A stretch of DNA of 43,256 nt from a virus. Below the pieces are notes generated by a model. That model was not told where the DNA came from. It was given only the letters and a program-made list of their open reading frames with translations, and did not search any database. The first letter of the stretch is position 1. The number at the start of each line of letters is the position of its first letter. Shown one piece after another: positions 4,112-34,400 of the stretch. The translations under genes were made by a program, and so were the position numbers. The stretch lies in the IMG/VR virus record IMGVR_UViG_3300017763_000039, positions 1 to 43,256 of that record. One strand, given 5' to 3'.

Positions 4112-4429
4112 ATGTCCGACAAAGACCTAGTCAAGGAACTCAAAGCCGAACTCTCAGAAATCACAAAAGACCGTGATGACACTCTGACGAAAATGAAATC
4201 CAAGGAGAGCCGGATGAAGCAGGTGTTGATCAAACTGGAACACAGAGAGCAGGACGTCCAAAGCATAGGACACAAGATAGGTGAGCAGAACAAGGAGATA
4301 GCGGACCTCAAGGCCAAGTTGGAGACCAAAGACCGACTGCTGGACGAGGCTCTGCAGAAGATCAAGGACATACATGACGACTCGACCGAAAAAACAGACA
4401 CCCACACAGACCATAAAGAGTTGGATTAA
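4112..4429 (+). CDS. Coiled-coil protein, unknown function
   Basis: 105 residues, start MSDKDLVKELKAELSE, stop TAA. Almost all of it is a charged helix with leucine/isoleucine heptads from about residue 5 to 90 (for example KIGEQNKEIADLKAKLE). There is one Cys-free stretch throughout, no enzyme motif and no membrane segment. The C-terminal 15 residues are polar (TDTHTDHKELD). Its last 56 bases overlap the next gene in another frame, so the two are probably translationally coupled. It may be a scaffold or partner-binding protein; nothing in the sequence decides which. Confidence 0.7.
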   Translation: MSDKDLVKELKAELSEITKDRDDTLTKMKSKESRMKQVLIKLEHREQDVQSIGHKIGEQNKEIADLKAKLETKDRLLDEALQKIKDIHDDSTEKTDTHTDHKELD

Positions 4430-4901
4430 GGACTTCGTAACCAAACCCAATCCGGTTTTCGGTGACCTACCGCCATGCCCATACGCACGGAAGGCCATAG
4501 TGGATGGCAAGGTAAAATTCCTAGAGCTGGATGGCATAGGAGAGTTCGGAACCATATTCACACACATTTGGGATTTCGACTTCGACAAACAGGACGTGCT
4601 GTGCATAATAGCCGAACCAGACCAGTACACTGCCCGGGAGACCGTGGAGATCGCTGACAGGTTGAATCAGGCATTCATGCCCCGTGACGTGGTGGTGCTG
4701 GAGGACCATCCCAAGATACACGAACACGTGAAAGGTGTCAAACTCAACAACGGCCACTACATACTGTTCCTGGCACAGAGACTGAGCAAACTGAACAAGT
4801 TCTCCAAGATGTTGGAGACTGGTCCTTACTATAAAAATTGGTCTAAATCTTATCTGAAAGAAGTGAAAGGTTTCCGAGGTCCCGCAAAGACTCGATCCTA
4901 G
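4374..4901 (+). CDS. Conserved-type hypothetical protein with PPCPYA motif
   Basis: 175 residues, start MTTRPKKQTPTQTIKSWIKD, stop TAG. After a basic N-terminus comes N-P-V-F-G-D-L-P-P-C-P-Y-A-R-K-A (about residues 26-41). I associate that P-x-C-P-[FY]-A motif with small uncharacterised proteins of marine bacteria and phages, but I cannot name a family. The middle alternates strands and helices (DVLCIIAEPDQYTARE), and the C-terminus has Y-Y-K-N-W. Only two cysteines stand out (in CPYA and VLCII). It overlaps the coiled-coil gene by 56 bases. Its last 59 bases lie on top of the 3' end of the opposite-strand transferase gene, so both strands code there. The position beside the enzyme cassette hints at a shared pathway, but that is guesswork. 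Confidence 0.7.
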   Translation: MTTRPKKQTPTQTIKSWIKDFVTKPNPVFGDLPPCPYARKAIVDGKVKFLELDGIGEFGTIFTHIWDFDFDKQDVLCIIAEPDQYTARETVEIADRLNQAFMPRDVVVLEDHPKIHEHVKGVKLNNGHYILFLAQRLSKLNKFSKMLETGPYYKNWSKSYLKEVKGFRGPAKTRS

Positions 4902-5613
4902 AATCTCTCTTACACAATCTACGGTACTGTTTCTTGTTGCGGCTCCATTCCGTGCCTGTCCACCACTCGAATCCTTTATAGTTGGCCTTGTACTCGGACG
5001 AGGTCTCGTAGCCAGAACCCATGTAGAAGTAACTGACGTAGTTGTTGGCGGCCCATTCTATCTCTAGGTCCAGCGTGACGTCCGATATGGGCACCGTGTT
5101 GGCGTGTATCACTGATTCCAGTCCGTGCAGGTCCTTGGCGTCGTAACTGTCGATGGTGCTGTAGTGCTCGTCCTCCCAACGGTAACGCTTCTGCTTGGTG
5201 AACCCAATGATGTTGTCAGCGGATCCTGTGTAGAATATCATGAACTGGTCACGTGGGTTGTAGTGTGCGAATGGATCGTAGTCCTGCGTAAATTTTTTCC
5301 TCTCCATGTACTGCTTGTAGATGTGCGGCAGTCCCAACAGTTTCACCATCTCGGATGCGTCAATTATTTTCACGCCGATCTCGTCGCCCTGGTACTCGTG
5401 TCGCTTGTAGCGTGGCTTGTACAGGTCCAGGTTAATCCTGGTGCTACGTGATTGGTAGAAAACCTCACGGTTCATGACCGGGTGGTCCAGCGCCAGCCAA
5501 CCTCGATCCAACGCCTCGTGTTCCTCGTCCACGTCCACTATGGCCATGGGTCGGCATATCACAAGGTCCTGGTGTTCCTGTTTGCCCAGAGTGTGATCGA
5601 ATATCAGTTCCAT
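4843..5613 (-). CDS. GNAT-fold / aminoacyl-tRNA-protein transferase-like protein
   Basis: 256 residues from the ATG at 5613 (MELIFDHTLGKQEHQD), stop TAG. I chose this start over a longer frame because GAGGAGG sits four bases upstream and the longer N-terminus lies inside the oxygenase gene. The C-terminal part (E-I-E-W-A-A-N-N-Y-V-S-Y-F-Y-M-G-S-G-Y-E, then EYKANYKGFEWWTGTEWS) resembles the GNAT-like core of leucyl/phenylalanyl- or arginyl-tRNA-protein transferases, where a Y-x-G-Y-x-I segment is followed by the M-x-Y-K-x-x-F-x-P-x-E region. That similarity is remote and from memory. It is the last of three overlapping genes (10-base overlap with the oxygenase), so it probably acts on an amino acid, amine or peptide made by the other two. 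An ordinary GNAT acyltransferase is the main alternative. Confidence 0.5.
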   Translation of the reverse strand: MELIFDHTLGKQEHQDLVICRPMAIVDVDEEHEALDRGWLALDHPVMNREVFYQSRSTRINLDLYKPRYKRHEYQGDEIGVKIIDASEMVKLLGLPHIYKQYMERKKFTQDYDPFAHYNPRDQFMIFYTGSADNIIGFTKQKRYRWEDEHYSTIDSYDAKDLHGLESVIHANTVPISDVTLDLEIEWAANNYVSYFYMGSGYETSSEYKANYKGFEWWTGTEWSRNKKQYRRLCKRDSRIESLRDLGNLSLLSDKI

Positions 5614-6272
5614 ATCACCTCCTCTTTTAGTATGCCAGTCACGTTGAATGTCCATTTGTCTGTGATGCCAACATTGGCGGAAAGGTGCCAACGATCAGGG
5701 TACCACAACAGTATGTCTCCGGCCTTCCAGTGCGTGACAAAGGAGTCGCCTGCCTGTAAAAGATGTCCGTTCTGCCAGTCTTTCTGGAACACAATGAATC
5801 TCACCACGTGATCGTCATGGCCCGGATTCTCACGTTTGAAGTATATGAATTTGTCCTGGTGCCATGGCATCACGTTGCCGGGTGGTTGCAGTGTTGGTCT
5901 GCTGGTGGCATTCGTCAGGGGCAGTTGCTCCATTATTTCGCCCTCCCAGGACATCTCCAGTTTGGGTTGTATCGTGGTCGTCTCCCAGTGTCTGGTGTTG
6001 TATGGACTGTAGCCGGACTGCCTGTGCTTGTCCAGTTCCTTGTTGAGGTCATCTCCCAGGCCGTCCCATGACTCCCTGTCACCCACCAGTGTCTGCCAAC
6101 ACTCCGGGTGATCCTTCACCGCCTGTTCGCACTCCTGCTGTATTGCGGACCAGTCCGCCGGTATGTTGCCACACCACACGTAGTCCTTGTGTTGGATGCT
6201 ATCCAGATAGGTGGTTCGAGATACAGACACGAATATAGTCTCCCCTTTTGTATTCTTGCATGGATTCATCAC
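5604..6272 (-). CDS. 2-oxoglutarate/Fe(II)-dependent oxygenase
   Basis: 222 residues. The double-stranded beta-helix metal site is visible: H138-Q-D140 in PWHQDKF, then a distal His in D-R-W-H196-L-S-A-N, preceded by the usual G-D-I-L-L-W-Y-P-D strand. R158 in VVRFIVFQKDW is typical of the core. Such enzymes hydroxylate or oxidatively modify amino acids, peptides, nucleic acid bases or small metabolites using 2-oxoglutarate and O2; the substrate is not readable here. The annotated ATG pair at 6272 overlaps the aminotransferase gene by 74 bases; a GTG around codon 15-17 is a possible later start. It stops with TGA, one of only two natural TGA stops in the window, overlapping the next gene's start. 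Middle gene of the minus-strand cassette. Confidence 0.75.
   Translation of the reverse strand: MMNPCKNTKGETIFVSVSRTTYLDSIQHKDYVWCGNIPADWSAIQQECEQAVKDHPECWQTLVGDRESWDGLGDDLNKELDKHRQSGYSPYNTRHWETTTIQPKLEMSWEGEIMEQLPLTNATSRPTLQPPGNVMPWHQDKFIYFKRENPGHDDHVVRFIVFQKDWQNGHLLQAGDSFVTHWKAGDILLWYPDRWHLSANVGITDKWTFNVTGILKEEVIWN
5614..5625 (-). promoter_or_regulatory. Strong Shine-Dalgarno deciding the transferase start
   Basis: The minus strand reads AGAGGAGGTGAT directly before the ATG at 5613. It lies inside the end of the oxygenase coding sequence and fixes the start of the downstream gene. Confidence 0.7.
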
Positions 6273-7050
6273 CTATGGCCAACGTCAGTGTGTTGGTCGG
6301 TTTGAGGTTCAATCGCTCGCACACGGTTTTGCTCTTGTCCATGTATTTTTCTATCAGCCAGTCCTGGGGGAACTTGTGTAGCAGTTGTGAACTGATGTAT
6401 CCGTTGACCTTGTCAAATATGTTGGCACCAAGCAGTGCGATCGTGATGCTGTCATCCACGAGGTCTTTGGTGAAACGCACACCCAGTCTCAGTGGATTGC
6501 CCACAAAGTTTTTGCTCAGGCTGGTGGCGATATCTTTCACACAGGGTCTGGTGAGATCGTATGTGATGCCGTGTGATATGCCGAAGTATGCGGCATCTAT
6601 GAAGACCGGAATGTCCAGGCCGTCACAGGTGTCCATTATCCTATCAAACGCAGGGTGCATGGCGCCATTGCCCGAGAAAGGCACACTGATTATCAAAGAA
6701 TCCCCTGCACGTAGTTCGTCGTCCTCTAGGTAGCACAGGTTCCTACCGTATGCCTTGGATAGAACTCTCGTGATGATGAAATCACTTCTGCTCACTCTAA
6801 TCCTGTTGTCGTGGTATCTCGACACAAACTCACCAAATGCGTCGGTTGTGCCGGGACAGAACGCACAGTGTTTCATGCCGTCCAGGCCTAGTATGCTGTT
6901 GTGTGAGGAATCTGCCAACCACTTGCGCCAGTCCGCCTCGAACTGCGCCGCGGTAAATTTGTCTAGGGTTTTGTAGTCCATTTTGGCCAGGACTTGGTCT
7001 ATGTGTTCGATGATCTCGGGTGTCTGTAAAGGGTCATGTGGAAGTTGCAT
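6199..7050 (-). CDS. Short PLP-dependent aminotransferase-like enzyme (fold type I)
   Basis: 283 residues, ATG at 7050, stop TAG. The fold-type I core motifs appear in order: I-S-V-P-F-S-G-N-G (121-129, equivalent of the N-P-T-G loop), F-I-D152-A-A-Y155-F-G (pyridine-nitrogen Asp and Tyr), S-L-S-K180-N-F (Schiff-base Lys), and L-R188-L-G-V-R192-F (phosphate/carboxylate Arg region). Class I aminotransferases are usually near 390 residues, so this is a compact form with short N- and C-terminal parts. It would transfer an amino group or carry out related PLP chemistry on an amino acid; the substrate is unknown. First gene of a three-gene overlapping operon. No Shine-Dalgarno is evident, but a long structured leader lies upstream (7051-7450). 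Confidence 0.75.
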   Translation of the reverse strand: MQLPHDPLQTPEIIEHIDQVLAKMDYKTLDKFTAAQFEADWRKWLADSSHNSILGLDGMKHCAFCPGTTDAFGEFVSRYHDNRIRVSRSDFIITRVLSKAYGRNLCYLEDDELRAGDSLIISVPFSGNGAMHPAFDRIMDTCDGLDIPVFIDAAYFGISHGITYDLTRPCVKDIATSLSKNFVGNPLRLGVRFTKDLVDDSITIALLGANIFDKVNGYISSQLLHKFPQDWLIEKYMDKSKTVCERLNLKPTNTLTLAIGDESMQEYKRGDYIRVCISNHLSG

Positions 7051-7078
7051 TACTGTACTTAATGTATTGTCAGAGACG

Positions 7079-7137
7079 GCTTACGCCATCTGAAACTTCG
7101 CTTACGCTCGTTTCATTTTCTTAATTTACGCTTACGC
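7079..7137. repeat. Three copies of GCTTACGC
   Basis: The 8-mer GCTTACGC occurs at 7079-7086, 7100-7107 and 7130-7137, with a degenerate fourth copy GGTTACGC at 7153-7160. Each exact copy forms the loop of a hairpin. Confidence 0.7.
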
Positions 7138-7155
7138 AAAGTGGAAATTAACGGT

Positions 7156-7171
7156 TACGCATATATGCGTA
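7156..7171. promoter_or_regulatory. Perfect 16-base palindrome, possible operator
   Basis: TACGCATATATGCGTA is self-complementary over 16 bases and lies 106-121 bases upstream of the aminotransferase start. It could be a dimeric repressor site or an RNA hairpin. No protein partner can be named. Confidence 0.35.
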
Positions 7172-7557
7172 CTCTGTGGTAGATGAGCAGTCACAATTCG
7201 GCTATTTCTAGCCGAACCGACTTGAACCCTGTGGTGAGTTCGCAGTCACTATACATCGCTACCGGAGTTGGGCGGTTGTGCTGTACCCATTTGCTCATTC
7301 ATTACAACGCGAGCCTGCCAAACCCTTGTATAATAGTTCTTGGCGGACCTGGGGATTTACTTTTTCTAAGAGCCCCATCATTTTTTGCTGTGTGCATCTA
7401 AGGATTCACCTGTCGCCTTGTCGGCCGCATTTCCTTGCTCACTGGTTGCGATGCTATGTTTGCCTATTGGAAATTTTTAAGAAATTTTAGTTTGCCTATC
7501 GCACTTGTTTATATGAGTTTTAATTTTAGGTCAATCTTTTTGGCTTTAAATACCACA

Positions 7558-7965
7558 ATGCATTGGACATACCAAGGAAATGAAATTACCACAATTCCAG
7601 AGGATATAGTTGGCTTCGTCTATCTCATAACAAACACGACCAACGGTAGGAAGTACATAGGCAAGAAATTGGCCAGGTTCAAGAGATCTAGGCCACCACT
7701 CAAAGGCAGGAAGAACAAGCGTAGATACAAGGTGGATTCAGACTGGCAGGACTACTATGGATCCAGCGATGATCTAACGATGGATGTCAACAAACTGGGC
7801 AGGGACAAGTTCACCAGGGAGATACTGTTTTGGTGTAGGTCCAAGGCGGAACTGTCATACGTGGAGGCACGTGAACAGTTTGCACGTAAGGTGCTTGAGT
7901 CAAACGATTACTACAACGGCCACATCCGTGTGAGGGTGCATGGAAAAGGGATTATAAAGTCTTAA
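7558..7965 (+). CDS. GIY-YIG family endonuclease
   Basis: 135 residues from the ATG at 7558 (MHWTYQGNEITTIPEDIVGF), stop TAA. The GIY-YIG nuclease motif is G-F-V-Y-L-I-T-N near residue 19, followed by R-K-Y-I-G-K-K, then a basic stretch (KRSRPPLKGRKNKRR) and D-W-Q-D-Y-Y-G-S-S. E86 or E89 of the F-T-R-E-I-L / E-A-R-E-Q-F segments is a candidate for the catalytic Glu. Such single-domain proteins are common in T4-like phages as Seg-like homing endonucleases or unassigned nucleases. A longer frame starts at 7435, but its N-terminal extension does not look like part of the family. It ends in a 14-base tail-to-tail overlap with the SGNH gene. It lies beside the structured gene-free region, which raises the possibility of a mobile unit. 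Confidence 0.75.
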   Translation: MHWTYQGNEITTIPEDIVGFVYLITNTTNGRKYIGKKLARFKRSRPPLKGRKNKRRYKVDSDWQDYYGSSDDLTMDVNKLGRDKFTREILFWCRSKAELSYVEAREQFARKVLESNDYYNGHIRVRVHGKGIIKS

Positions 7966-8947
7966 CAATTTCGTTAGCAAAATGCTCATGGTGTTTCCTA
8001 TGAGGATGTTCACCGTCATCGGCTCGTTCAGTGAACAGGGATAATCTGGGGAATTTCGCCAACAGGTTTATATTGTTTTGTGATTTTAGATAATCATATA
8101 CATCGTCATGATGACTTGAAACATTTAATTCTATTTTATTTTTATTGCAGTAGTCTATTATTTTGTTCAAAAATCTTTTAGAATATCTATTTTTTACATC
8201 TTTTATGATGTTATCCCTGACCTCTTGCATTTTGGACAGCAATCTTTTATTTCTGTAAAACGAGTGTTCACTAGTCACGTGGGATAAATCTACAGTGCTA
8301 TAGATACTCATATATTTGTCATCAATTTTACAACGAACGATTCTACGTTCAAAATTAGGAAACAGTATCACACACTTATCAAAATTCTGTGCCTTGTGTA
8401 GTAATTTTAAATTGTGGTAAATGCCATCTATACCACTTCCGCTCACACCCATATTGAGATAGTTTGCACCTGTCCTTTGAGATAACTGAAATGGCCAAGA
8501 GTCCGAAGCGGATTGGTAAGCACCATAGGTAAATGAACATCCAAAACAAGGAATGAATTTTTTTTCAAATCCTTTGTGATCTCGATCTCTGTACCGATTG
8601 GTAAAACTATCGTTTGTAAATTCGTATTGAAAAATATAATCATCCTTTTTTGTAGCACAATGCCAATTATTTGACCTATGAGATAAGATGTAAAGGTCAT
8701 CTAGTTCTAGGGTGAATACTCCTTTCATAGATATTTCATGTATAGATGTCAGTACAACATCACTGCCGTCTATGAGTAATGATGTGTTGTAAAATTTATT
8801 GGTTTCGATACCGTTAAGAATAATTTTATTAATAACAATGGTGTTACCCTTTGGATCCAAAGGGAAGGAAATTTTATTTTGCTTGGGATAATCTATGTCC
8901 CACTCCATAACTTTTGTGCTGAGGTGGATTTCGATTTTCAAATTCAT
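7952..8947 (-). CDS. SGNH/GDSL-type hydrolase, AT-rich, probably acquired
   Basis: 331 residues, ATG at 8947, stop TAA. After a beta-rich N-terminal part of about 125 residues comes the SGNH block I, F-I-P-C-F-G-C-S138-F-T-Y-G, with the nucleophile Ser. Then L-N-M-G-V-S-G-S-G (about 164-172) supplies the Gly/Asn region, and the C-terminal D311-G-E-H314-P-H gives the D-x-x-H pair. SGNH enzymes are esterases, often removing acetyl groups from glycans or acting on lipids; in phages they may work on surface polysaccharide, but this one sits outside the structural block. The base composition is plainly more AT-rich than in its neighbours (long runs such as ctattttatttttattgc), suggesting recent transfer. 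Substrate unknown. Confidence 0.7.
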   Translation of the reverse strand: MNLKIEIHLSTKVMEWDIDYPKQNKISFPLDPKGNTIVINKIILNGIETNKFYNTSLLIDGSDVVLTSIHEISMKGVFTLELDDLYILSHRSNNWHCATKKDDYIFQYEFTNDSFTNRYRDRDHKGFEKKFIPCFGCSFTYGAYQSASDSWPFQLSQRTGANYLNMGVSGSGIDGIYHNLKLLHKAQNFDKCVILFPNFERRIVRCKIDDKYMSIYSTVDLSHVTSEHSFYRNKRLLSKMQEVRDNIIKDVKNRYSKRFLNKIIDYCNKNKIELNVSSHHDDVYDYLKSQNNINLLAKFPRLSLFTERADDGEHPHRKHHEHFANEIVKTL

Positions 8948-21900: not shown

Positions 21901-22476
21901 ACAGCGGACCAGTTGAGGATCAATTACTCGGGCATACTTAACCCATTGAAATCATTGTCAGATCAGATCATATACCATCCTGTGAAATACAAGATACTTT
22001 TCGGTTCAAACGCAGACGAGCAATTACAAGCAACTTTCAAAGTTGTTAAAAATCCAAAGACCAACGTGTCAGACGCAGTGGTAAAGACCAGAGTGATTGC
22101 CGCAATAAACGAATTCTTCGCACTGGACAACTGGGATTTCGGAGACAGTTTTTACTTCACAGAATTAGCCGCTTACATACACAATCAACTAGCACCAGAC
22201 TTGTTGACAGCGGTCATTGTGCCCAACCAGTCAGGACAGGGTTTTGGGTCCTTGTTCCAACTTGACTCGGCGGCGGACGAGATTTTCATCAGTGGGGCCA
22301 CCGTTGATGATGTGTCAATCATAACAGCACTGGGAGCCAACCAACTGGCGGCCTCCGGCACTGTGGTCACATCGACATCAACTACCACGACCAACACCAC
22401 GACAGGATCAGCAGTGTCAGGCTCTACTACAACAGGTTCCGGTTCAAGCACCGGCAGTAGTGGGTCAGGATACTAA
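18994..22476 (+). CDS. gp6: Baseplate wedge protein gp6, enlarged
   Basis: 1160 residues; T4 gp6 is 660. The N-terminal D-W-R-K-I-Y-Q-A-F, then F-V-E-S-S-E-Y-V-A-L-I-D-L-I-A-Y and L-N-A-R-E-N-F-L-E-T-A, is the gp6/J-type wedge signature. Later, K-A-A-Q-V-Y-Y-S-Q-N-R-M-I-T-A-E-D-Y (about 418-435) is the second family landmark. The second half holds beta-rich inserts, and the last 45 residues are Ser/Thr/Gly-rich, ending G-S-S-G-S-G-Y. gp6 dimers form the inner ring that holds wedges together and controls baseplate switching. The stop overlaps the start of the giant gene (TAATG). A late promoter and an 18-base palindrome mark its start. Confidence 0.85.
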   Translation: MATTDRQNRLLVAEDWRKIYQAFQQADFKSYDFETLRRTMVAYLKENYPDDFNDFVESSEYVALIDLIAYISQALSFRVDLNARENFLETAERRNSVLRLARLINYNAKRNLPATGMLKIDSISTSQDVSDSTGTNLANSTIIWNDSANSNYREQFTAILNAANQSGQLFGNPRESGSIGGISTEVYTLSSNQLDLPIFKFQKSVGGISRSFEIVSSTITDSDSIYESSPVPGTGLTYTYRTDGSGDSSNNTGFFFLFKQGTLQQTDFTVDTSVTNYIKSLDASNINNSDVWLYKLDQFGQLSESWTKVPSLSGNNAIYNSLSKAERNTYNVVTKNNDAIDLVFGDGNFSNIPLGSFRTYYRTSDNSKYAIQSSDMQNVQLTVPYTDANGAQQSLTMSISLKASVYNSAATESNDSIKEKAAQVYYSQNRMITAEDYQVVPLSASQEIVKVRSVNRSASGISRAKEILDPTGAYSNVSVFADDGILYREESLQRFTFTFNNRSDIQSTIDTSVEAKLKEAYARQFYYLKYGTKDASTLSATWNSTTTSTNTNTGYFLSGRALVIGDSATSNMKFAKPGALVKFTSPDTRKFLNGTLVASTTDNAEDRVWAKIGEVVLDGANGGVGNLESGVGPVTLTDIIPQGSVINAIIPNFTTSFSATLEADLQDRIEAYEEFGLRYDVDSETWKVITSTNLSTSTSFDLAGAGSTAGTNADASWWFKFTNDGNTYTVQYRKLDYIFESDSQNKFHYDVEEKIYDYTTGKSVKDTVKILKTNSIVSSGNSVGYPITWQVVDVVTEADGFQDNRKVKVGFFDDDDDGVVDNPELFDIFVEPSLSESTKFVFFEKYTSYDNIERFRPYASTNFVVAQNEADINLNTTAYDDEQLFYFYDSAEDVIKSYSSTTNTLSTTTDYTARRGRGSINFQYKHHAGQETRIDPSVSNIVDVYLLERTYDNLFRIWLQDGGSKPNTATADQLRINYSGILNPLKSLSDQIIYHPVKYKILFGSNADEQLQATFKVVKNPKTNVSDAVVKTRVIAAINEFFALDNWDFGDSFYFTELAAYIHNQLAPDLLTAVIVPNQSGQGFGSLFQLDSAADEIFISGATVDDVSIITALGANQLAASGTVVTSTSTTTTNTTTGSAVSGSTTTGSGSSTGSSGSGY

Positions 22477-25400
22477 TGGCGGACAATCCCACAAACCCTT
22501 TAACCAATAACGAAGTTGTCAAACAGGGCACCAACGAGTACAGACGTACTGTACAGCACCTACCTGCTTTCTACAGGACGGACGCCAATCAACGTTTCCT
22601 GGCCAGCACGATGGATCCGTTGGTACAAAAAGGATCTTTAGAAAGACTTGATGGCTACATAGGCAGACAAGATGCCTACACCAGGGATGTCAGCGACAGG
22701 TACATCACTGCAACAAGCAGGGCCAGGTACGCATATCAGTTAGAACCCGCTGTCACCTACACGGACAGAGACACAACATCTGTGAATCCTGAAGACCAGG
22801 TCAAGTTCACTGGAACGTATGACGACTACATAAACCAGATCAAGTACCTGGGAGGTAATGTCAACAACCACGATAGACTTAACAAGGAAACTGTGTACAG
22901 TTGGAATCCTGCCATAGACTACGACAAGTTGGTCAACTACAGGGAGTACTACTGGATGCCGGATGGACCAGGCACCATAGAGATAGATTCTGTCGGACCA
23001 AGTGCGGTAGTAGAATATTCCGTAGAGAATTTGGCGCAAGGCGCTTATAACTTCACCCACAGGGAAAATGAAAACAATCCTATATTAACACTATACAGAG
23101 GTAACACCTACAAGTTCAACGTGAACGCCAAAGGACATCCGTTCTGGATAATGACGGAACCATACAAGAGCAAGGTATCTGCTGATGGCTCAACGTCAAC
23201 TATATTTGACACAGGCGTTACGAACAACGGAGTTGACTACGGAACAGTTACATTCACGGTTCCCACAACTGGTGCACCAAGCACTTTATATTACCAATGT
23301 GGTAACCATGATGCCATGTACGGCATCCTGCAGATAAAAGATGCCACGAGCACCACAGCAATAGATGTTGAAGATGATATCGTGGGTGCGAAAAATTACA
23401 GCCTACGTACTCTTGATCTATCAAACGGAATGAAGATCAAGTTCACGAAATCCTTGGTAGCGAGTGCGTACCAAGACAAGGAATACTACGTGGAAGGTGT
23501 TGGTGATGCAATAACACTCACAGATGTTGAGGATTTAATTACCCCAGGCTCATATGCGACAGAATCCACTATACTGTATGATCAGGTAGGATATGATTCA
23601 AGACCATACGCCAAAGCGTATTACACTCCTGAGAACAAAGATTACATAACGATCAAGAGGGATTCACAGGATCAGAACGCTTGGTCTAGATACAACAGAT
23701 GGTTCCATAGATCCATCATAGATGAAACAGCAAGGATCGGTGGTTTCACTCCCACGCTGAACGAGGACGACAGAGCAAAGAGACCTATTATAGAATTCGA
23801 TTCAGGATTGGCACTATACAACCATGGAACTGTGGCCAAAAAATCTGTCACGCTGTATGACACAGTAACAACTGACGCCTTCAGCACAGTGGTCAAACAG
23901 ACAGGTTACATCGTCGATGGAATAGCATTGGCGGATGGCATGAGGATAGTGTTTGCCGCGGACACAGACACACTGGTAAAAAATAAGATATATGATGTGA
24001 ACTTTGTGACAGCGGGAGACTCCACTCAAGTCATAAACTTGACAGAAGCGTCCGACGGCACCCCGGCAGACAATGATTCCATATTCATAGAGTTCGGAAC
24101 AACAAACCAAGGTAAGACTTTCCATTACGACAACACAACAGAAACTTTTATAGAATCACAAGAGAAGACAGGAGTGAACCAACAACCATTGTTCGCCATG
24201 TTCGACAACGACCACACACCGTTCGATGATGCCACAACGTATCCAAATTCAACTTTCGCAGGAGCGAAGGTTTTTGCTTTCGCAACATCAGACACAGCAA
24301 CCACAGATACTGTGCTAGGTATCAAAGTGAAATACAACACAATAAACAATGTCGGGGACATTGTGTTCGATTCGGACCACACGTCAGGAACATTTACCTA
24401 CAAGAGTGGAACACAAACGCTTACAAAAAATTTAGCCGAGGGACACTTGCACTACAGCACAGGCAGAAGCACACACAACTCGAGAAGTGCTTGGATAAAA
24501 AGAACGTCGGAAAGTAAGCAACGTGTCATACGTACATTCATAGTAGATGCCACAGAGAAACAGTTGTTCCCTATTGACTTCTACAAGGATTCAGCGGACC
24601 TAACAGATCTTGAAGTTTCTGTATCAGTTAACGGTACGAGAAAAACACTGACTACAGATTACACATTGGAGACCGGCACAAAAAACAAATACGTGAAATT
24701 CAACAAGGCACTAGAAGTTAATGATCAGGTCAGGATCGCTGGACACAGCAGTGTCGATAAAGTAGAAAATAAAGGAATATACGAGATACCAGAGAACCTG
24801 GCTACAAACAGTCTCAATGAACAGTTGGGCACATTCACGTTTGGACAAATTCTAAATCACGTAAAGGACATACTAGACAAGAATCAAGATGTGAATGGAG
24901 CGATACCAGGAGTGTCAAATCTTAGAGATAAACCAGATGCAAGATTAAAGGGTGGTAGCATACATCAGCACGAAGGATCTTTACTGCCTGCTATATTCAA
25001 TCTGTTAGATCAAGAGGCAAACTTTGTTACTTCATTAGATTACGCAGGTCATGAATACGAGAAATGGTACAACGCATTCCTTACTCACGCAACTGGCACA
25101 GCATACGAAGGTGTTGCGGCCGACAGAGTGGACGAAATCATCACAGCAATAACACCTGGCAGGAACAACAGTTTCCCGTTCTATTATGAGGACATGTTGG
25201 GTTGGGGAGAAAATGTATCAACTAGGTCATACTCGGTTATGGGATCATCGCAGACAGAATACGCACTTGATTCACAACATGACATCACTACATTGAACAA
25301 CAGGGCAGTGTACGTTTACCTCAATGACGTGCAATTATTACTGGGAACAGATTACACTTTCAGCACAACCAATGACAGCGTAGAGATCACAAAAGCACTG

Positions 25401-28400
25401 GCAGAAGGCGACAAGATTGTCATAAAGGATTACAGTGACACAACAGGAAGTTACATGCCACCATCTCCTACCAAATTGGGAATGTATCCTAGGTTCACTC
25501 CTGAGGTATTCACAGATACGACCTACATCACAGACACAGCAATGATCCGGAAGCACGACGGTTCCATAATAAAAGCATACGGTGATGAACGAGATGACCT
25601 AATAATTGAACTTGAAAAAAGGATCTACAACAATATAAAAGTCACGTACGACGCCGCATACATCGACATACATGATATCATGCCAAGTGCTTTTACGTCT
25701 ACAGAATACAAACTACAAGAAGTAGACAGTGTGATGGGGCCAGACTTCTATCAATGGGCAGGACGTAACAATGTTCAGTACATCAACAACACAGTTTTCT
25801 CAGAAGGATCACCATTCACTTACAACTATGCTAGGTCCAAAGGCAGGCTGATAGATGAGAATCTACCAGGACACTGGAGGGGCATCTACAAATATTTCTA
25901 CGACACTGACGCTCCGCATGTTAGACCATGGGAGATGTTAGGTCATTCGGAGAAACCAACGGATTGGGACGCAACATACGGAACTGCTCCGTACACCTCG
26001 GGCAACGATGTGTTATGGAACGCGGTTGCAACAGAACCAGGCAGATACGGCAAGCCTTTGATAAAAGACTACCTACCGGTAGATGCATCTGGAAACTTAT
26101 TAGATCCATTGGCGGCAGGACTAGTTGACAACTTTGACATACCAGGACGACAGAACGCTTGGAAGTTTGGTGATCAAGCACCAGCGGAGACGGCGTGGAG
26201 AAGATCCAGTGCTTATCCATTCACGGCCGTGAAGGCTTTGGCACTGACCAAACCCGCAAAATTCTTTTCAAACCTTTTCGATCCATCAAGATTGACAACC
26301 AATGTTGCTGGAAACCAGATTTACACAGAGACAGGAATAAGAAAAACATTAGCCACTGCCAGGTATCACTTAGAGACCGAAACAAATTTAGCAACGGGTG
26401 TAACAACAAAATACCAGACAGCGGGTTATCAACCGTATGTGGTCAATCACTTGATTTCAAAGAACTTGGATGCCAAGACCTTCTACTACGACAAGATGAA
26501 AAATCTAAGTGTTCAGTTGGCATACAAGTTGGGAGGGTTCACAGACAAGGACAACATTAAAATCTTAACAGACAGTGTGTCCCCGGGATCCAAATCAGGA
26601 TCAAAATTTATACCAGACGAAAACTACAAGATATTGTTCAGGACATCAAATCCTGTGGACAGTTTCCAATTCTCTGGTGTGCTGATAGAGAAGAACACGG
26701 ACATCAGTCAGGATGGTTCTACTGTACTAGGCGGATACAAGATATTAGGTTACAGCACAACTAAACCATATTTCAATTTCAACTATCCGGTCAAGACCAC
26801 AACGGCAACAGCGGTATCGACAGAAGGATCAACGGTAGTAGAACAGTATACCGCATACCAAGAAATTACGCAGACAATACCATATGGTCATGTATTCAAT
26901 ACCATACAGGACGTTACTGATTTCTTATTTGGATACGGACATTGGTTGGAATCACAAGGATTCCAATTCAACAAATTCTCAAATGAATTAAAAGAAACAC
27001 TGAATTGGGCGAACGCAGTCAGAGAATTCTTATTCTGGACCACGCAGGAATGGTCTCCAGGATCAGCGATAACCGTTTCACCGGCCGCTGACGGATTCGA
27101 ACTAAACACCAACAACAGCATTGTAGGGAAACTTAGGAACCTGGCAGGTGACTATTCACTTCTAGACTCAGGAGGCAGGAAGATAGACATCAGTGAGATA
27201 TCTACCAAACGAATAGGCAAGACTTTTGAACTGGGGATCAAGTCTGACACCATCGGACTTTACAACATAGCATTGAACACTGTTCAGAAGGAACACGTAT
27301 TGTTGTTTGACAACAGCACAGTGTTCGCGGACATAATATATGATCCATTCACAGGTTTCAGACAACAGAGATTGAAACTAGTTGGATGGAAGACAGCAGG
27401 ATGGAACGGTGACTACTACGCACCAGGTTTCGTATTCGATGCCGCACAGGTCACATACTGGATTGCCAACACAGACTACAGGATAGGCGACAGTGTAGAG
27501 TACCAAGGCAAGTTCTATGTGGCAAAATCTAATCACAACTCAGGATCAACCTTCGATAAAACCTATTGGACACTCAAGGATGAGAAACCAGCACCACAGT
27601 TGATACCAAACTTCGAGTACAAGATCGCACAGTTCAATGACTTCTATGAGATGGAGACCAACAACTTTGATGAATCGCAACAGCAGTTGGCACAGAGATT
27701 GACTGGGTACCAGAGCAGGGACTACCTGGAGAACCTATTCGTCAACGACGTTTCACAGTACAAGTTCTACCAAGGCTACATCAGGGAGAAGGGCACGCAG
27801 AACGCCATAGACAAGATCCTGAAGGCCAAGTACGAGGGCGAGGATATCTCACTCGACCTTTATCCGGAATGGATGATAAGGACAGGTAACTTCGGCAACA
27901 CAGATTCCATAGAGAACATACAGATCACACTGAAAGACGATGAGATCACGGCAGATCCACAGAGCATAGAGTTGTTGGACACGTCCAATGACACGGTGGA
28001 ATATACAAGATCAGATGCCATTGTCAAAGACAACTTCTACTACAAGCCAGTGGAGTACACAGCATCAGACACGTTCAAGAGATTGGACTACACCAAGCAA
28101 GGTGTCAGCAGGGACACAGCACAGGTGTTCAAGACAGCAGGATACCCGCAAGTTCAACAGGTGCAACACACAGCCTTCGACATAGAAGAGATCCTGGATT
28201 TAGACATGAACGCCATAACGGCCAATGACCTTGTATGGGTTGCCAACAAGAGCAACCTTGACTGGGACGTTTTAAGGATCACTAGTGCTGGCATAAAGAT
28301 AGCGAATCTACACTTAATAAACGATGCCTCACAGTTGGAGATCACTTTCACAGGTTCTCACAATCTGACAGCAGGTTCCACAACTACACAAGCGGACTAC

Positions 28401-31400
28401 TTTGGCATATCAAACAGTGAAGAAGCAACACTGAATGGCGTGTACCAGGTCAGTGCCACACCGGACCACAAAACGGTGATCATAGATTACGATGGCAACG
28501 TGGGATTCATTCCGGCACTGGAAGACGGCTCAACGGCAGACAGTTATGGAAACATCTACAAGTTCGTGTCTGTGAGATTGGCATCAATGGACAATGTAAA
28601 TGACTTGATAGATTTTGAAAATTACACAGACAAGGATGACGCCATAGAACAACCAGGAGACAAGGTGTTCGCAGATGCTGACAGCTCAGGACTGTGGCGT
28701 GTGTATGAGAAACAGGATCCATACACCACAGCGATAGTGTTATCGCCAGACGCCAGCACAGCAGAGCAGGAGTTCGGACACAGGATAGTGGCACGTAATG
28801 ACGGTAGGACAGTGATTGCGTCTGCTCCAGGCAAGGGCCAAGGTGAGGTACACTTCCTATTCAGGACCTCGTCTACAGCGGGTACTCTTTTACAATCACA
28901 GTCTGTAGGAACCATGACCGACAATGATGACAACACCAGTAGGTTAGGTGAATCACTGTCAATGAGTACAGACGAGAACTTCGTTGTTGCAGGAGCACCA
29001 TACACGAATGCAGTAGGTGCCGACGGTAGCACAAGATTTATTGACTCAGGACTGGTAAAAATTTACATATGGGATCCTAGCACGTTCAAGTATGGCATAC
29101 TAGACACAGTCAGAAGTCCTACTGATGGATCCACATTGAATGAGAATGCCAATTTTGGATGGGCACATAAAATTTCAGAACCAGGGACTAGTTCGGTAAG
29201 AACGACTCCTGACAAATACCTCTTCGTATCAGCACCGGGCCATGACAACGACAGGGGTCGGGTATACATGTACACATGGGGAGTGGGTGCAGACGGTTCC
29301 ACATATGACACATGGACACAGGACTACACAATAGAAGCACCAAACGGCGGTAGAGGCCAAAGATTTGGACACAGAATTCAAACGAATGACAACGGTGACA
29401 TACTTGCCGTTAGTTCCGTTGCACCAGGCAACGCTGGCAAGGTGGAGATATTCATCAAGACGTCACAGAGCAATGATGGTAGCACACAAAATTCATTCGC
29501 ACTGGCACAGACACTGACCGGGGTCACAAGCGATGGGTCATCTATAAACACAAAATTTGGCGAATCTATAGCAATGAGCAAAGATGGAACTACGCTGATT
29601 GTTGGAGCGCCTGGCGTTGATGGCACATCACATCCAGATGCAGGAGCGGTGTACTATTACAAATGGAATGCAGATGATTCCACAAACACCTACACCCTAC
29701 AACAGACCATAAGTGCTCCAGAATCAAGCACTAACATGAAGTTTGGCACAAGCATGGATATCAGCCATGATGGTACGAGAGTAATCATAGGTGCTGAAAA
29801 TTTTGCGAGCTCTAGAGAAATGAAATTTGACGCAGGGGAGACGACGTTTGACTTGCAGGACACTACCATAGTCGACAGCAACACGGGTTCGGGTGGGGCA
29901 TTCACGGCAACCATGTACAACACTAAATTTGTTTTGGATGACAGACTGATCACAGACAACGTCACAGTGAATGATGACTTTGGAAGAGGCGTCTGCGTAA
30001 TTGACGGTTCGGTCTACGTTGGAGCACCAAAAGACGATGGAAACACAACAACAGACGGAAGCACTAAAGTAGTGAATGACGGCACAGTGACCTGTTTCGA
30101 TCTTACAGTCAACGGAGAATATGCTTGGAAGAATCTAGTGACTGAGACTGCACTAATGGACACGGAAAAACTAGGAAAAGTTTTTGAATTCAATAAAAAA
30201 ACAAAACAATTACAGGATTACTATGACTTATACGATCCTATCAAAGGTAGGATACTAGGTATTGCAGACAGAGAGATTGATATCAAGACTGCGTGGGATC
30301 CAGCATCATACAACGTGGGACCAAAGGCCACTATCAAGACACCATGGGCGGAAGACCATAAAGGTGAGGTGTGGTGGGATCTTTCCACAGTAAAATGGTT
30401 GTGGTACGAACAGGACACGCAGGAATACAAACTCAACCACTGGGGACAGACATTCCCTGGTTCGAGCATAGACGTTTACGAATGGGTTGAATCAAGACTC
30501 CTACCAAGTGAATGGAACAACAGAGTCGAAGGCACAAGCTCAACGATATCAGGCATTGCACTGTATGGCGACGACTCAAATTACAGTGTGGTGCAGAAGT
30601 ACGATTCACGACTGGACAGTTTCGTGAACGTCTACTACTTCTGGGTAAAAGGCAAAACAACATTGCCTGACAACACACACAGGAAGAACACGGTGGCGTT
30701 CGTTGCCAACCTGATCACAAATCCTAGGGCATTTGATCACAAATACTATTCTATCACAGACACTAACAAATTCCTATTGAACAATATTTCTAATTTGACG
30801 AATGACGATGTAGTACTTAATGTGGATATAAGGACAAACACATTCGAGGGAGATTCACACAGCGTATGGAAGTTGGTCAGGGAAGGTGACGCCGACTACA
30901 GACCAGGAGTGCAAGTAGAGTCACGTTGGTGGGATTCGTTGATAGGTAAAAATACTGCGGGAGACATTGTACCAGATTTAAATCTTCCGTTAAACGAGAG
31001 ATACGGCAACAACGTCAGACCAAGACAGAGCTGGTATGTGGATAGGTATGACGCATTGAAAGAGATCATAGACTATGCAAACAGTGTATTAAAGAAAAAT
31101 CAACTAGTGGGACAGGTAAACCTAACAAACTTGGATTCCCAGGATCCAGAACCAACGTCACAGAGTCTAGAATGGGACGCTTCGGTGGACACATATGCAG
31201 AGTTGACATACATTAACACAGCAGACATATCAGGTACAGTGAAATATCTTGTGAAAGCGGATGAGACTGCCAACAACTACTGGGCAATATACACCTGGGA
31301 TGGCACGGAATGGTCGAGGACCAAGATACAAACGTACAACACTTCTGCATACTGGGGTTACACGGATTGGTACAAAGTTGACGGTGACATGATCCATGAT

Positions 31401-34400
31401 GAGAACACTAAAATTGACAAGCAGGTTACATACCAGTACGAACTTGACACGCTGGATATCGCGATAGGCAAGCACGTCAAAGTTACAAGTGCGGACACAG
31501 GTGGTTGGAAACTGTTCATGAAGACTGCAACAGGATGGGAAAACGTTGGAACAGAGAACGGTACAATTAGGTTAAGCACCAAACTTTACGACTACAGCCA
31601 AGACGCATCGGGTTTTGCAGGACAGGACAACTTCGATGACAATTTCTTTGATCAAGAGCCAAGCATTGAGACAAGGAAAATTTTGACTGCATTAAGGGAC
31701 GACATGTTCACGGACGAGTTAGCCGGAGAATACAACACATTGTTCTTTACAGGATTAAGAAAAGTTCTTTCTGAACAGACGTACGTAGACTGGATGTTCA
31801 AAACATCATTCATAAATGCTAAAAATTCTGTGAGGCAACTTGATCAGAGAAAAACATACACCACTGGCACGGACAGTTGGATAGAGAGCTACATCAATGA
31901 AGTCAAACCATTCCACACAAAATTAAGGGAATACAAACTAGGTTATGACAAAACAGAAACACAGGATGGCCTATTCTCGGACTTTGACAATCCCACTTTC
32001 TATGACGCGACAACAGGTAAGATCAGAAGTCTCAACGTTGATTCAGACACAGCGAAATTAACAGAGTTCCCATACCAGATGTGGTATGACTACCACAAAA
32101 AGTATGTGCAGTCTATCACTGTGACAGCAGGAGGTTCGGGATACGAGGTGGCTCCTACAGTAACCATACTGGGAGGAACGACAGGATCAACAGGACCGTT
32201 CCAGATACAGGCCACAAGTAGTTCAGGTGCGACTAGTGGACAGTTTGGATACTACTATCCGTTGTTCACGAGTGAGAAACAGGCCGAGATTTATGACGCA
32301 CAGAATTCAGGTTCAGGAACAACTAAACCTTACACATTTGATGGGTTGGATGGAACATTCTATGGCCCAACAGCGTCGGTTACAGAAGCACAATCCTCGA
32401 AATCAACTTTATACAAGATTTATGTCACGCCTACCACAACAGCGGCGACAGCCACTGCAATCATACAGGGTGGTGCAGTAACAAAAATTAATGTCACAGG
32501 GATAGGTGCGAATTACACAGCAACACCTACAGTTGTGTTGACAGGTGGTAAAAAAGATGGCACCACACCAACAGACACAGCCAAAGCATATGCGAACTTG
32601 AACAACGACCTTGTTAGAGATTTTGACACCACTATCAAGTTTGACAGGGTGTCAAGCACATCCAGGGTGGTGGACTGGGCGGCATCAACAGCCTACGCAT
32701 ACAACGACCTATTGAGATACAACAATGGACTTTACAAAGTTACAAACGCATTCACTTCAAGCACAGACTTCGACGACAACTCAGCAAGTGTATATAAGGT
32801 ATACGGTAACGAGACAGGATTGACAGCGGCTGACAGAACAAAAGGGTTCTACACACCAGGCTCAGGAATGCCGGGCAACGAACTAGACCAAGTGATGACT
32901 GGAGTTGACTACGGTGGGACGATGGTCACAGGATTGCTATTCAGCCAAGAGGCAGGATGGGACAAGGCGGGTTGGTATGACTTCCCATGGGACAACTACG
33001 GAAATTCAAGAGTCAAGGCGTTCAGGGCAGATGGTTCAACAGCGGCATACACATTTGACACAGCACCTACCAGCAGTGAAGTATATCAAGTGTACCTAAC
33101 ACAAGACGACAGTACACGTAAGAAACTTACAGACGTGTTCAGGGGCGACGGTTCAACAGTATCATTCACTATAAGTGAAACACCGGAAGCAAACGCACTT
33201 GTAGAGTTCATACCATTCGATGACGACGGCGTGCTTACACCAACAGATGACAGGACGTTAGATTCTTTAGTGAAAGGTGGCCTATTCACATCAGCACTGG
33301 GTCACGCACCTAGTGACATAGTTTTAGAGGGTGATGATTTCGTTTCTCCAGACACAAGTTACGCACCGGAAGAGGTTGTTCCTGGACAGTTGTTTGATAC
33401 CTTAGACATCAAGGTGTACACGTCACCGGAATCAGGTGTGCCATTCATAAGTGAGATGAACCACAGGGGGAATGGAAGCACAACAACATTCAGCATAGGC
33501 GACTATCCTGGATCTCTTGGGTCAGTCACAGTGTCTGTTGACGGTGTAGTACAGAAATTGACAACAAACTATACAGTCAACGTTGGTAACAAAACAATTA
33601 CATTTACATCAGCACCTGTAAACAACAGCATAATATCAACAAAAGTTTTTGCAATTTCAGGTGAGAACTACAGAGTGCTGAACACTTTTACAGGCGACGG
33701 AAGTACAACATCGTTCTTGACTTCTACAAGAGGAGAATTCAATTTAGATTCTACGTCATCGGACATCTACGTGACGGTGGACGGAGTTCCTACAACATCA
33801 TACACAACAACGACAACAGCAAATACAATCACTGTGGTATTCAATTCAGCACCAGCGGCAAGTTCTTACATACAGATAGCAGGTTTCAACAAGTCAACCA
33901 CAAGCACTAGAAGTTTTGCAAGTGTGAGGAATCAGGCAATTACGTATGACGGTGCAACAAACAGATACACCTTGACTTATCCACCGGGAGCGATAGGACC
34001 ATTCTCTGGTCTGACCACGGTCGAGTTGAACGGCAGAGTATTACGAGGACCGGACAACACCTACTACGTTGGAGACGGAAGCACATACACATATGGTGTT
34101 GTATCTGGATTAGAAGATGATTCAACAGTTGACCCGGCAAAAACAATTTCAAGTGCCAGCCAGGTACAAGTTTTTGTTAATGGAACCAAAAAAGATCTTA
34201 ATACGCACTACACTGTGGATGTTGGAAACAACAATATAGAATTTAACACAGCATCAGTTCCTACTTCAACAGATGTGATTTGTATTTCAACGTTAGTCGA
34301 TCATCAATACTACAATGAAGGAACGGATTTGATATTAGTGCCTAGTGCAATTACATCTCCTTACAGTCTGAGTGCAAGTGATGTATTATCAGTCACAACA

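Follow-up and report, generated by a model that had tools for sequence, protein, structure and literature searches.

Do three overlapping genes that run against their surroundings in a marine phage genome fragment make up one biosynthetic pathway? The fragment is IMG/VR record IMGVR_UViG_3300017763_000039, and all 43,256 nucleotides of it were analyzed (hereafter the window). A first-pass annotation had described a three-gene overlapping cassette at 4843-7050, on the strand opposite to the surrounding tail genes, encoding a pyridoxal phosphate (PLP) aminotransferase-like protein (AT), a 2-oxoglutarate (2OG) oxygenase (OG) and a GNAT/aminoacyl-transferase-like protein, and had proposed that the three make or attach a modified amino acid. 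The three minus-strand open reading frames (ORFs) and their orientation were borne out, but the unit is AT-OG and the third gene does not belong to it.

AT and OG form a two-gene unit

When loci were collected with AT as the anchor, OG lay directly downstream in 12/12 (loci are given by L-number; the OG gene of L051 is cut by the contig end). Anchoring on OG gave 80 loci, and among the 31 best AT stood alongside in 29, the two exceptions (L056 and L064) being cut by contig ends. The two genes stay side by side, in either order, in many genomic settings that are otherwise unrelated, and homologues of both proteins at ~20-80% identity keep the invariant catalytic residues. AT-OG is a conserved two-gene unit that travels together through viruses. 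The window AT protein is 82-83% identical to those of L001 and L002, at a DNA identity of 72-74% across the insert, and third-position GC of AT/OG tracks the host phage (0.62/0.67 in the window, 0.26/0.18 in L002 and 0.28/0.23 in L001), the pattern expected of genes long kept under purifying selection.

In the window AT (6199-7050, minus strand) begins with ATG and encodes 283 residues. For OG (5604-6230, minus strand) the GTG at 6230 is the start best backed by relatives: in L004, L005 and L045 the earliest possible start is the equivalent GTG. It is preceded by GGGGAG 9 nt upstream and gives a protein of 208 residues with a 32-nt overlap with AT. Alternative starts are the ATG at 6269 and the GTG at 6272; only the latter gives the 74-nt overlap first reported, whereas the 10-nt overlap of OG with the GNAT-like gene was exact.

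The unit is inserted between a structured leader and a core gene

Leader homology with relatives (L007, L008, L010, L037, L024, L031 and others) breaks off near window 7054-7056 and picks up again at 5613, where the GNAT-like gene has its start codon. The empty sites, in which the leader adjoins that start codon, agree within a few bases. Because the leader ends, and homology then resumes, at the borders of the empty sites, AT-OG is an insert between leader and core gene, a segment of 1441 bp (5614-7054). GAGGAGGTGAT lies within the last OG codons, immediately before the ATG of the GNAT-like gene, and thus the insert seems to bring a ribosome-binding site for that gene, AT itself presumably being served by the one in the leader.

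The leader (7051-7548, minus strand; ~500 nt) lies upstream of AT in the window and of the core gene in relatives lacking AT-OG, and is 91-95% identical over ~450 nt among close relatives, the value being 93-95% for L007, L008, L010, L037 and others with empty sites. About 330-400 nt of it (also L007:9605-10000 and relatives), beside a GIY-YIG gene, is a candidate conserved structured RNA. In the predicted consensus fold of 14 related sequences 20 of 77 pairs show compensatory changes (z=-3.1), one stem being TTCGGCTA-GAAA-TAGCCGAA in one version and TACTGCTA-GAAA-TAGCAGTA in another. The leader had no Rfam match at E<=1, and no tRNA was found in it.

The same slot is filled by AT-OG in L002, by AT-OG followed by an SGNH-type gene in L001 and by an SGNH-type ORF in L015. 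Such varied cargo would suit an explanation in which AT and OG share no pathway, either as separate passengers that a recombination hotspot keeps side by side or because the PLP enzyme merely feeds 2-oxoglutarate to the oxygenase. However, a hotspot fits poorly with adjacency in so many unrelated contexts and in both orders, and 2-oxoglutarate is already abundant in cells, so that a dedicated supplier is unneeded. We consider this explanation unlikely.

SGNH-type genes recur close to the AT-OG cargo slot. The window itself has a gene for a 331-residue protein at 7952-8947 (minus strand) with a DUF6473/weak GDSL-like match, relatives of which lie in the same region of L021 and L034.

The GNAT-like gene is a core neighbor

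The third gene (4843-5613, minus strand; 256 residues) encodes a protein whose Foldseek PDB matches are GNAT-fold acyl/aminoacyl transferases including ATE1 and FemX, with E values down to 2.6e-4 and low TM-scores, in agreement with the first description of the protein. A search of viral structures with its model matched only unnamed or general GNAT phage proteins. Homology to ATE was considered and rejected, no ATE_C (PF04377) match being found in the window at E<=10, and the assignment was kept at the level of fold. Its start at 5613 is supported because the alignment of nearly all of its 32 viral homologues begins only at residue 27 of a longer TTG-initiated ORF.

These 32 homologues sit at related loci that mostly lack AT-OG. 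When all window genes were mapped onto relatives, a fixed core order emerged: g9010, GIY-YIG, GNAT-like, g4374, g4112, g3838, hub and tape measure. Conversely, AT-OG occurs without the GNAT-like gene in unrelated phages (L003, L004, L005, L042 and L045-L051), in contexts that we take to be after a uvsW-like helicase, near an FkbM-like methyltransferase and in a sugar-nucleotide cluster. Because it keeps the same place in AT-OG-free relatives and AT-OG is found elsewhere without it, the GNAT-like gene is a core gene of the phage lineage, an ordinary neighbor outside the AT-OG pathway. The proposal that all three proteins make and attach a modified amino acid draws on adjacency, on overlaps of 10 nt in the window and 4 nt in L002, and on a fold near ATE1 and FemX. 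It conflicts with both distributions, with the empty sites, which place AT-OG as an insertion before the GNAT-like gene, and with L001, where the SGNH-type gene separates OG from the GNAT-like gene. We therefore regard a three-gene pathway as very improbable. The co-occurrence survey that the first-pass annotation had suggested thus upheld AT-OG, scattered the GNAT-like gene independently, and gave another recurring third enzyme, an amidinotransferase.

The flanking core genes complete the locus. On the plus strand a convergent gene (4374-4901; phrog_28122) overlaps the GNAT-like gene tail to tail by 59 nt, and a GIY-YIG endonuclease-like gene (7549-7965; Pfam SegE_GIY-YIG, E=3e-36), syntenic in relatives, diverges from the leader. 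The best PHROG of the latter, phrog_447, bears the name 'NAD synthetase', apparently in error. PHROG matches identified hub (Gp26) and tape-measure neighbors, and from their translations we take other neighbors to be gp46/47-like. By these markers the window is from a T4-like phage. It also contains a very large plus-strand ORF of 4278 residues (22476-35312).

AT is a predicted compact fold-type-I PLP enzyme

AT is predicted to be a short PLP fold-type-I enzyme resembling class I/II aminotransferases. The window copy matches Pfam Aminotran_1_2 (PF00155) at E=0.027 and 14.1 bits, below the curated cut-off of 19.7, and 8/10 family members match it, the best at E=4e-7. An AlphaFold model of low confidence (pLDDT 60) retrieved 287 PDB chains at E<=0.001 with Foldseek, HisC, CobD, AspAT and RohP included, and all 50 chains listed are PLP fold-type-I enzymes. 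PDB sequence searches with single window proteins and early profiles were uninformative. In an alignment of 34 diverse members (identity down to ~21%; A14) G67, P124, D152, K180, R192 and D200 are invariant, S177 and R188, the presumed contacts to the PLP phosphate, are conserved in at least 90% of members, and the C-terminal R274 is nearly invariant. K180 (codon 6511-6513, minus strand; motif SLSKNFVGNPLRLG) is the presumed Schiff-base lysine and D152 (codon 6595-6597, minus strand; motif IDAAYFG) the presumed partner of the PLP ring nitrogen. R188 lies at K+8, the same spacing as in class I aminotransferases, and we take K180 and R188 to be the equivalents of AspAT K258 and R266. The unusual shortness of the protein remarked on at the outset holds throughout the family, at ~270-320 residues.

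In a tree of 34 AT sequences built by a quick method the window copy pairs with that of L004 (support 95) within a clade of 14 members (support 98) that consists mostly of AT-then-OG pairs; ATs linked to amidinotransferases of the type called A below fall in other groups. AT gave no match among 50,697 named phage genomes, searches of named phages with all three window proteins were likewise negative, and, when a cell-encoded origin was considered, the GTDB contig collection gave a single AT match, L051, a viral or bacterial metagenome-assembled genome contig with DegT-like, dTDP-sugar-like and 2OG-like genes. Given this near-absence of the family from named phages and GTDB contigs, annotation pipelines probably overlook AT.

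A second, distant type (AT'', 276-290 residues) was seen in the variable region of related phages, preceded by an overlapping ORF of ~181-185 residues with an apparent HxD...H pattern (L007:7428-8790, L027:6610-7948, L037:4934-6299 and L004:11470-12869, the L004 pair lying beside AT-OG). The L004 copy of that ORF has a weak PhyH match and the L037 copy no relevant Pfam match, so its identity as a 2OG enzyme rests on the motif.

OG is a predicted PhyH-like 2OG oxygenase

The assignment of OG as an Fe(II)/2OG oxygenase came through similar tests. Its window copy matches Pfam PhyH at E=0.008 and 16.9 bits (curated cut-off 22), and PhyH is matched by 6/11 family members, the best at E=2.6e-4. Numbered from the ATG at 6269, H137, D139, R157, G168, H195 and N199 are invariant in an alignment of 35 diverse members (A15). 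H137, D139 and H195 supply the HxD...H facial triad of Fe(II)/2OG oxygenases, the metal-binding HxD being encoded at 5853-5861 (minus strand). The stretch from the distal H195 to K205 lies at 5655-5687 (minus strand); K205, at H+10, is the presumed contact to the 2OG carboxylate, with lysine replacing the usual arginine. Position 205 is K or R in 10/10 rows of a further alignment (A2); L049, with F there, is an exception to the pattern. The first-pass annotation was thus right to read the two overlapping genes as coding for a PLP enzyme and a 2OG oxygenase, and the two recur together in other genomes. Loss of catalytic residues had been named there as a sign against its proposal, an objection that fails because those of AT and OG are conserved.

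An amidinotransferase is the usual third partner

At many further OG loci an amidinotransferase-like gene adjoins OG instead of, or besides, AT. A profile of this partner matched PDB sequences of the inosamine-phosphate amidinotransferase StrB1 (1bwd; E=5e-82) and AGAT (6e-65), with SxtG and HsvA also found, all at <=1e-61, and the catalytic residues H227, D229 and C336 are invariant. Judged from these matches, the usual third partner is a predicted amidinotransferase of the StrB1/AGAT type. As a profile of all types was too diverse for scanning, the family was split into types A and B, of which type B served as the negative control; clusters were deduplicated at 90% identity and linkage was scored within 3 kb. 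In this amidinotransferase-anchored search AT accompanied 24/28 type-A clusters and OG 20/28, against 1/58 (L001) and 7/58 for type B. Type-A clusters usually read OG, AT, amidinotransferase, and these genes are very closely spaced.

Other enzymes follow the same division. P4H-type 2OG oxygenases were found at 40/80 type-A loci, radical SAM enzymes at 35/80 and glycosyltransferase-like genes at 44/80, versus 0/80, 0/80 and 8/80 of the type-B loci; the glycosyltransferase-like label is our presumption from motifs. A Pfam count of neighbors found radical SAM in 20/148 near genes versus 6/148 far genes (p=0.007). SGNH genes occurred at 0/80 type-A loci by the profile used, and hence are not part of the module. 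Sugar-nucleotide genes lie near the module in L049, L051 and L104.

Clusters of P4H-type 2OG, OG, AT, amidinotransferase, radical SAM and glycosyltransferase-like genes were seen at L147:3887-12009 and in similar form in L145, L146, L165 and L171. The L147 cluster also has a tryptophan halogenase (Pfam E=1e-90) and what we take to be a NodU-like carbamoyltransferase.

Such neighbors bear on whether the target could be DNA, OG oxidizing a base, AT aminating the resulting carbonyl and partners extending it to protect the phage genome. Known base modifications of phages follow the same logic of oxidation, amination and transfer, L165 and L171 have a QueD-like gene a few kb upstream of the module, and the far set contains two PTPS matches. 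However, no TET/JBP-type oxygenase, base-modification kinase or pyrophosphorylase was recognized next to the pairs, the neighbors being glycosyltransferase-like, sugar-nucleotide and radical SAM genes. DNA hypermodification is, in our view, quite improbable.

A proposed pathway

We tentatively favor a reading in which AT-OG is a two-gene, co-translated biosynthetic cargo of tailed phages whose enzymes act in sequence on one small substrate, and the pair probably builds a chemical tag. Its position between leader and core-gene start codon would let the unit draw on the leader's expression signals. OG would hydroxylate or oxidize an unactivated carbon of the substrate by Fe(II)/2OG chemistry and AT would then install an amino group from an amino-acid donor. 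Where present, the amidinotransferase would move the amidino group of arginine onto that amine. A glycosyltransferase-like gene is often the last of the operon, and its protein would couple the product to a glycan or another acceptor. The window phage would halt at the oxidized or aminated stage, or would rely on an amidinotransferase from the host or from genes beyond the 43-kb record. The gene content of the cluster in Synechococcus phage S-SCSM2R (described below) and the presence of sugar-nucleotide genes in L049, L051 and L104 weakly favor a glycan or sugar as the target. It is possible, though doubtful, that a widespread and so far undescribed viral pathway, combining a 2OG oxygenase and a short PLP enzyme with amidinotransferase, radical SAM and glycosyltransferase-like proteins, decorates molecules with guanidino groups in infected marine bacteria, perhaps as a mask for phage or host surfaces. 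The window would then carry the minimal oxygenase-aminotransferase form of this pathway, built on a new compact PLP family that is almost only viral.

Several points weigh against this scheme. The AT family is barely linked by sequence to known aminotransferases (best E=0.017 against PDB sequences) and, since this link is marginal and the model weak, AT could catalyze a PLP reaction other than transamination. The order of oxidation, amination and guanidinylation is one that we infer from enzyme classes. The differences between types A and B (Fisher p=4e-16 for AT and p=6e-8 for OG) come from loci that are not fully independent, related viruses contributing several clusters. An amidinotransferase is absent from the 43-kb window, itself a fragment, a profile search of all window ORFs having matched only AT and OG, and the 14-member AT clade of the window mostly lacks one. 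Amidinotransferase chemistry may thus not apply to the window phage. An amidinotransferase gene does lie upstream of AT-OG in L042, where it is adjacent and accompanies an AT of the window's clade, and in the close relative L001.

The same enzymes could also follow capreomycidine-type logic, in which OG would hydroxylate arginine or another free amino acid and the PLP enzyme, instead of transaminating, would rearrange or cyclize the product to a non-proteinogenic guanidino amino acid, as VioC and VioD do. That route too couples a 2OG oxygenase to a PLP enzyme of class I/II fold, the recurrent amidinotransferase uses arginine, RohP, found with the AT model, is a PLP-dependent L-arginine hydroxylase, and R274 of AT would suit an alpha-carboxylate. 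Yet OG was PhyH-like in Pfam scans with no VioC-type family match. The Foldseek ranking derives from a low-confidence model with many other PLP enzymes on the list, and arginine as the starting point would make the amidinotransferase unnecessary. We judge this route somewhat unlikely and retain the oxidation-amination scheme as our working reading.

Comparison with known systems

Marine phages carry 2OG oxygenases among their most frequent 'auxiliary' genes, and few of the substrates are known. These oxygenases are reported to be enriched in seasonal viruses (PMC11561400). Conserved gene order here links one OG subfamily with a PLP enzyme and an amidinotransferase. The range of likely chemistry thereby shrinks to oxidation, amination and guanidinylation, which can be tested with two or three purified proteins.

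We found no description of the AT-OG pair or of the AT-OG-amidinotransferase triad in the literature, nor of a pathway with the set first proposed in T4-like phages, which agrees with the first-pass annotation. Phages are already known to exchange biosynthetic cassettes of this broad type: Campylobacter phages CP220 and CPt10 carry an exchangeable module with radical SAM enzymes and a glycine-amidinotransferase-like gene (PMC2853527). In CP220 the latter gene is a homologue of the marine amidinotransferase gene (25% identity over 96%, E=2e-20), and no AT or OG homologue was detected in the CP220/CPt10 module. The gvg operon of Pseudomonas fluorescens WH6, for formylaminooxyvinylglycine, brings together amidinotransferase, aminotransferase and lipase/esterase-like genes (PMC8067088). 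The same gene types occur in L001, a resemblance of gene types only, as the gvg operon has a class III aminotransferase, a haem-oxygenase-like protein and carbamoyl- and formyltransferases.

S-SCSM2R resembles the viral set in having an OG-family gene directly followed by an inosamine-amidinotransferase gene, among several glycosyltransferases and a radical SAM gene. It differs in lacking AT, in place of which stands a gene annotated as 3-amino-5-hydroxybenzoic acid synthase, presumably of the DegT type. The VioC/VioD pair likewise joins a 2OG oxygenase to a class I/II-fold PLP enzyme; no family-level match was found, Pfam/NCBIfam scans of the window proteins giving no specific hit to a VioC-type arginine hydroxylase or a VioD-type cyclase, the viral pair has shorter enzymes that are PhyH-like or without an assigned family, and the viral module adds an amidinotransferase. 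In the streptidine branch of streptomycin synthesis StsC is of another aminotransferase class and oxidation is by a dehydrogenase, where the viral set uses a 2OG oxygenase and the window lacks the amidinotransferase. As in the scheme proposed for the viral set, however, StsC and StrB1 aminate a carbonyl and then move the amidino group of arginine to the new amine, and it is StrB1 (1bwd) that the viral partner matches at E=5e-82.

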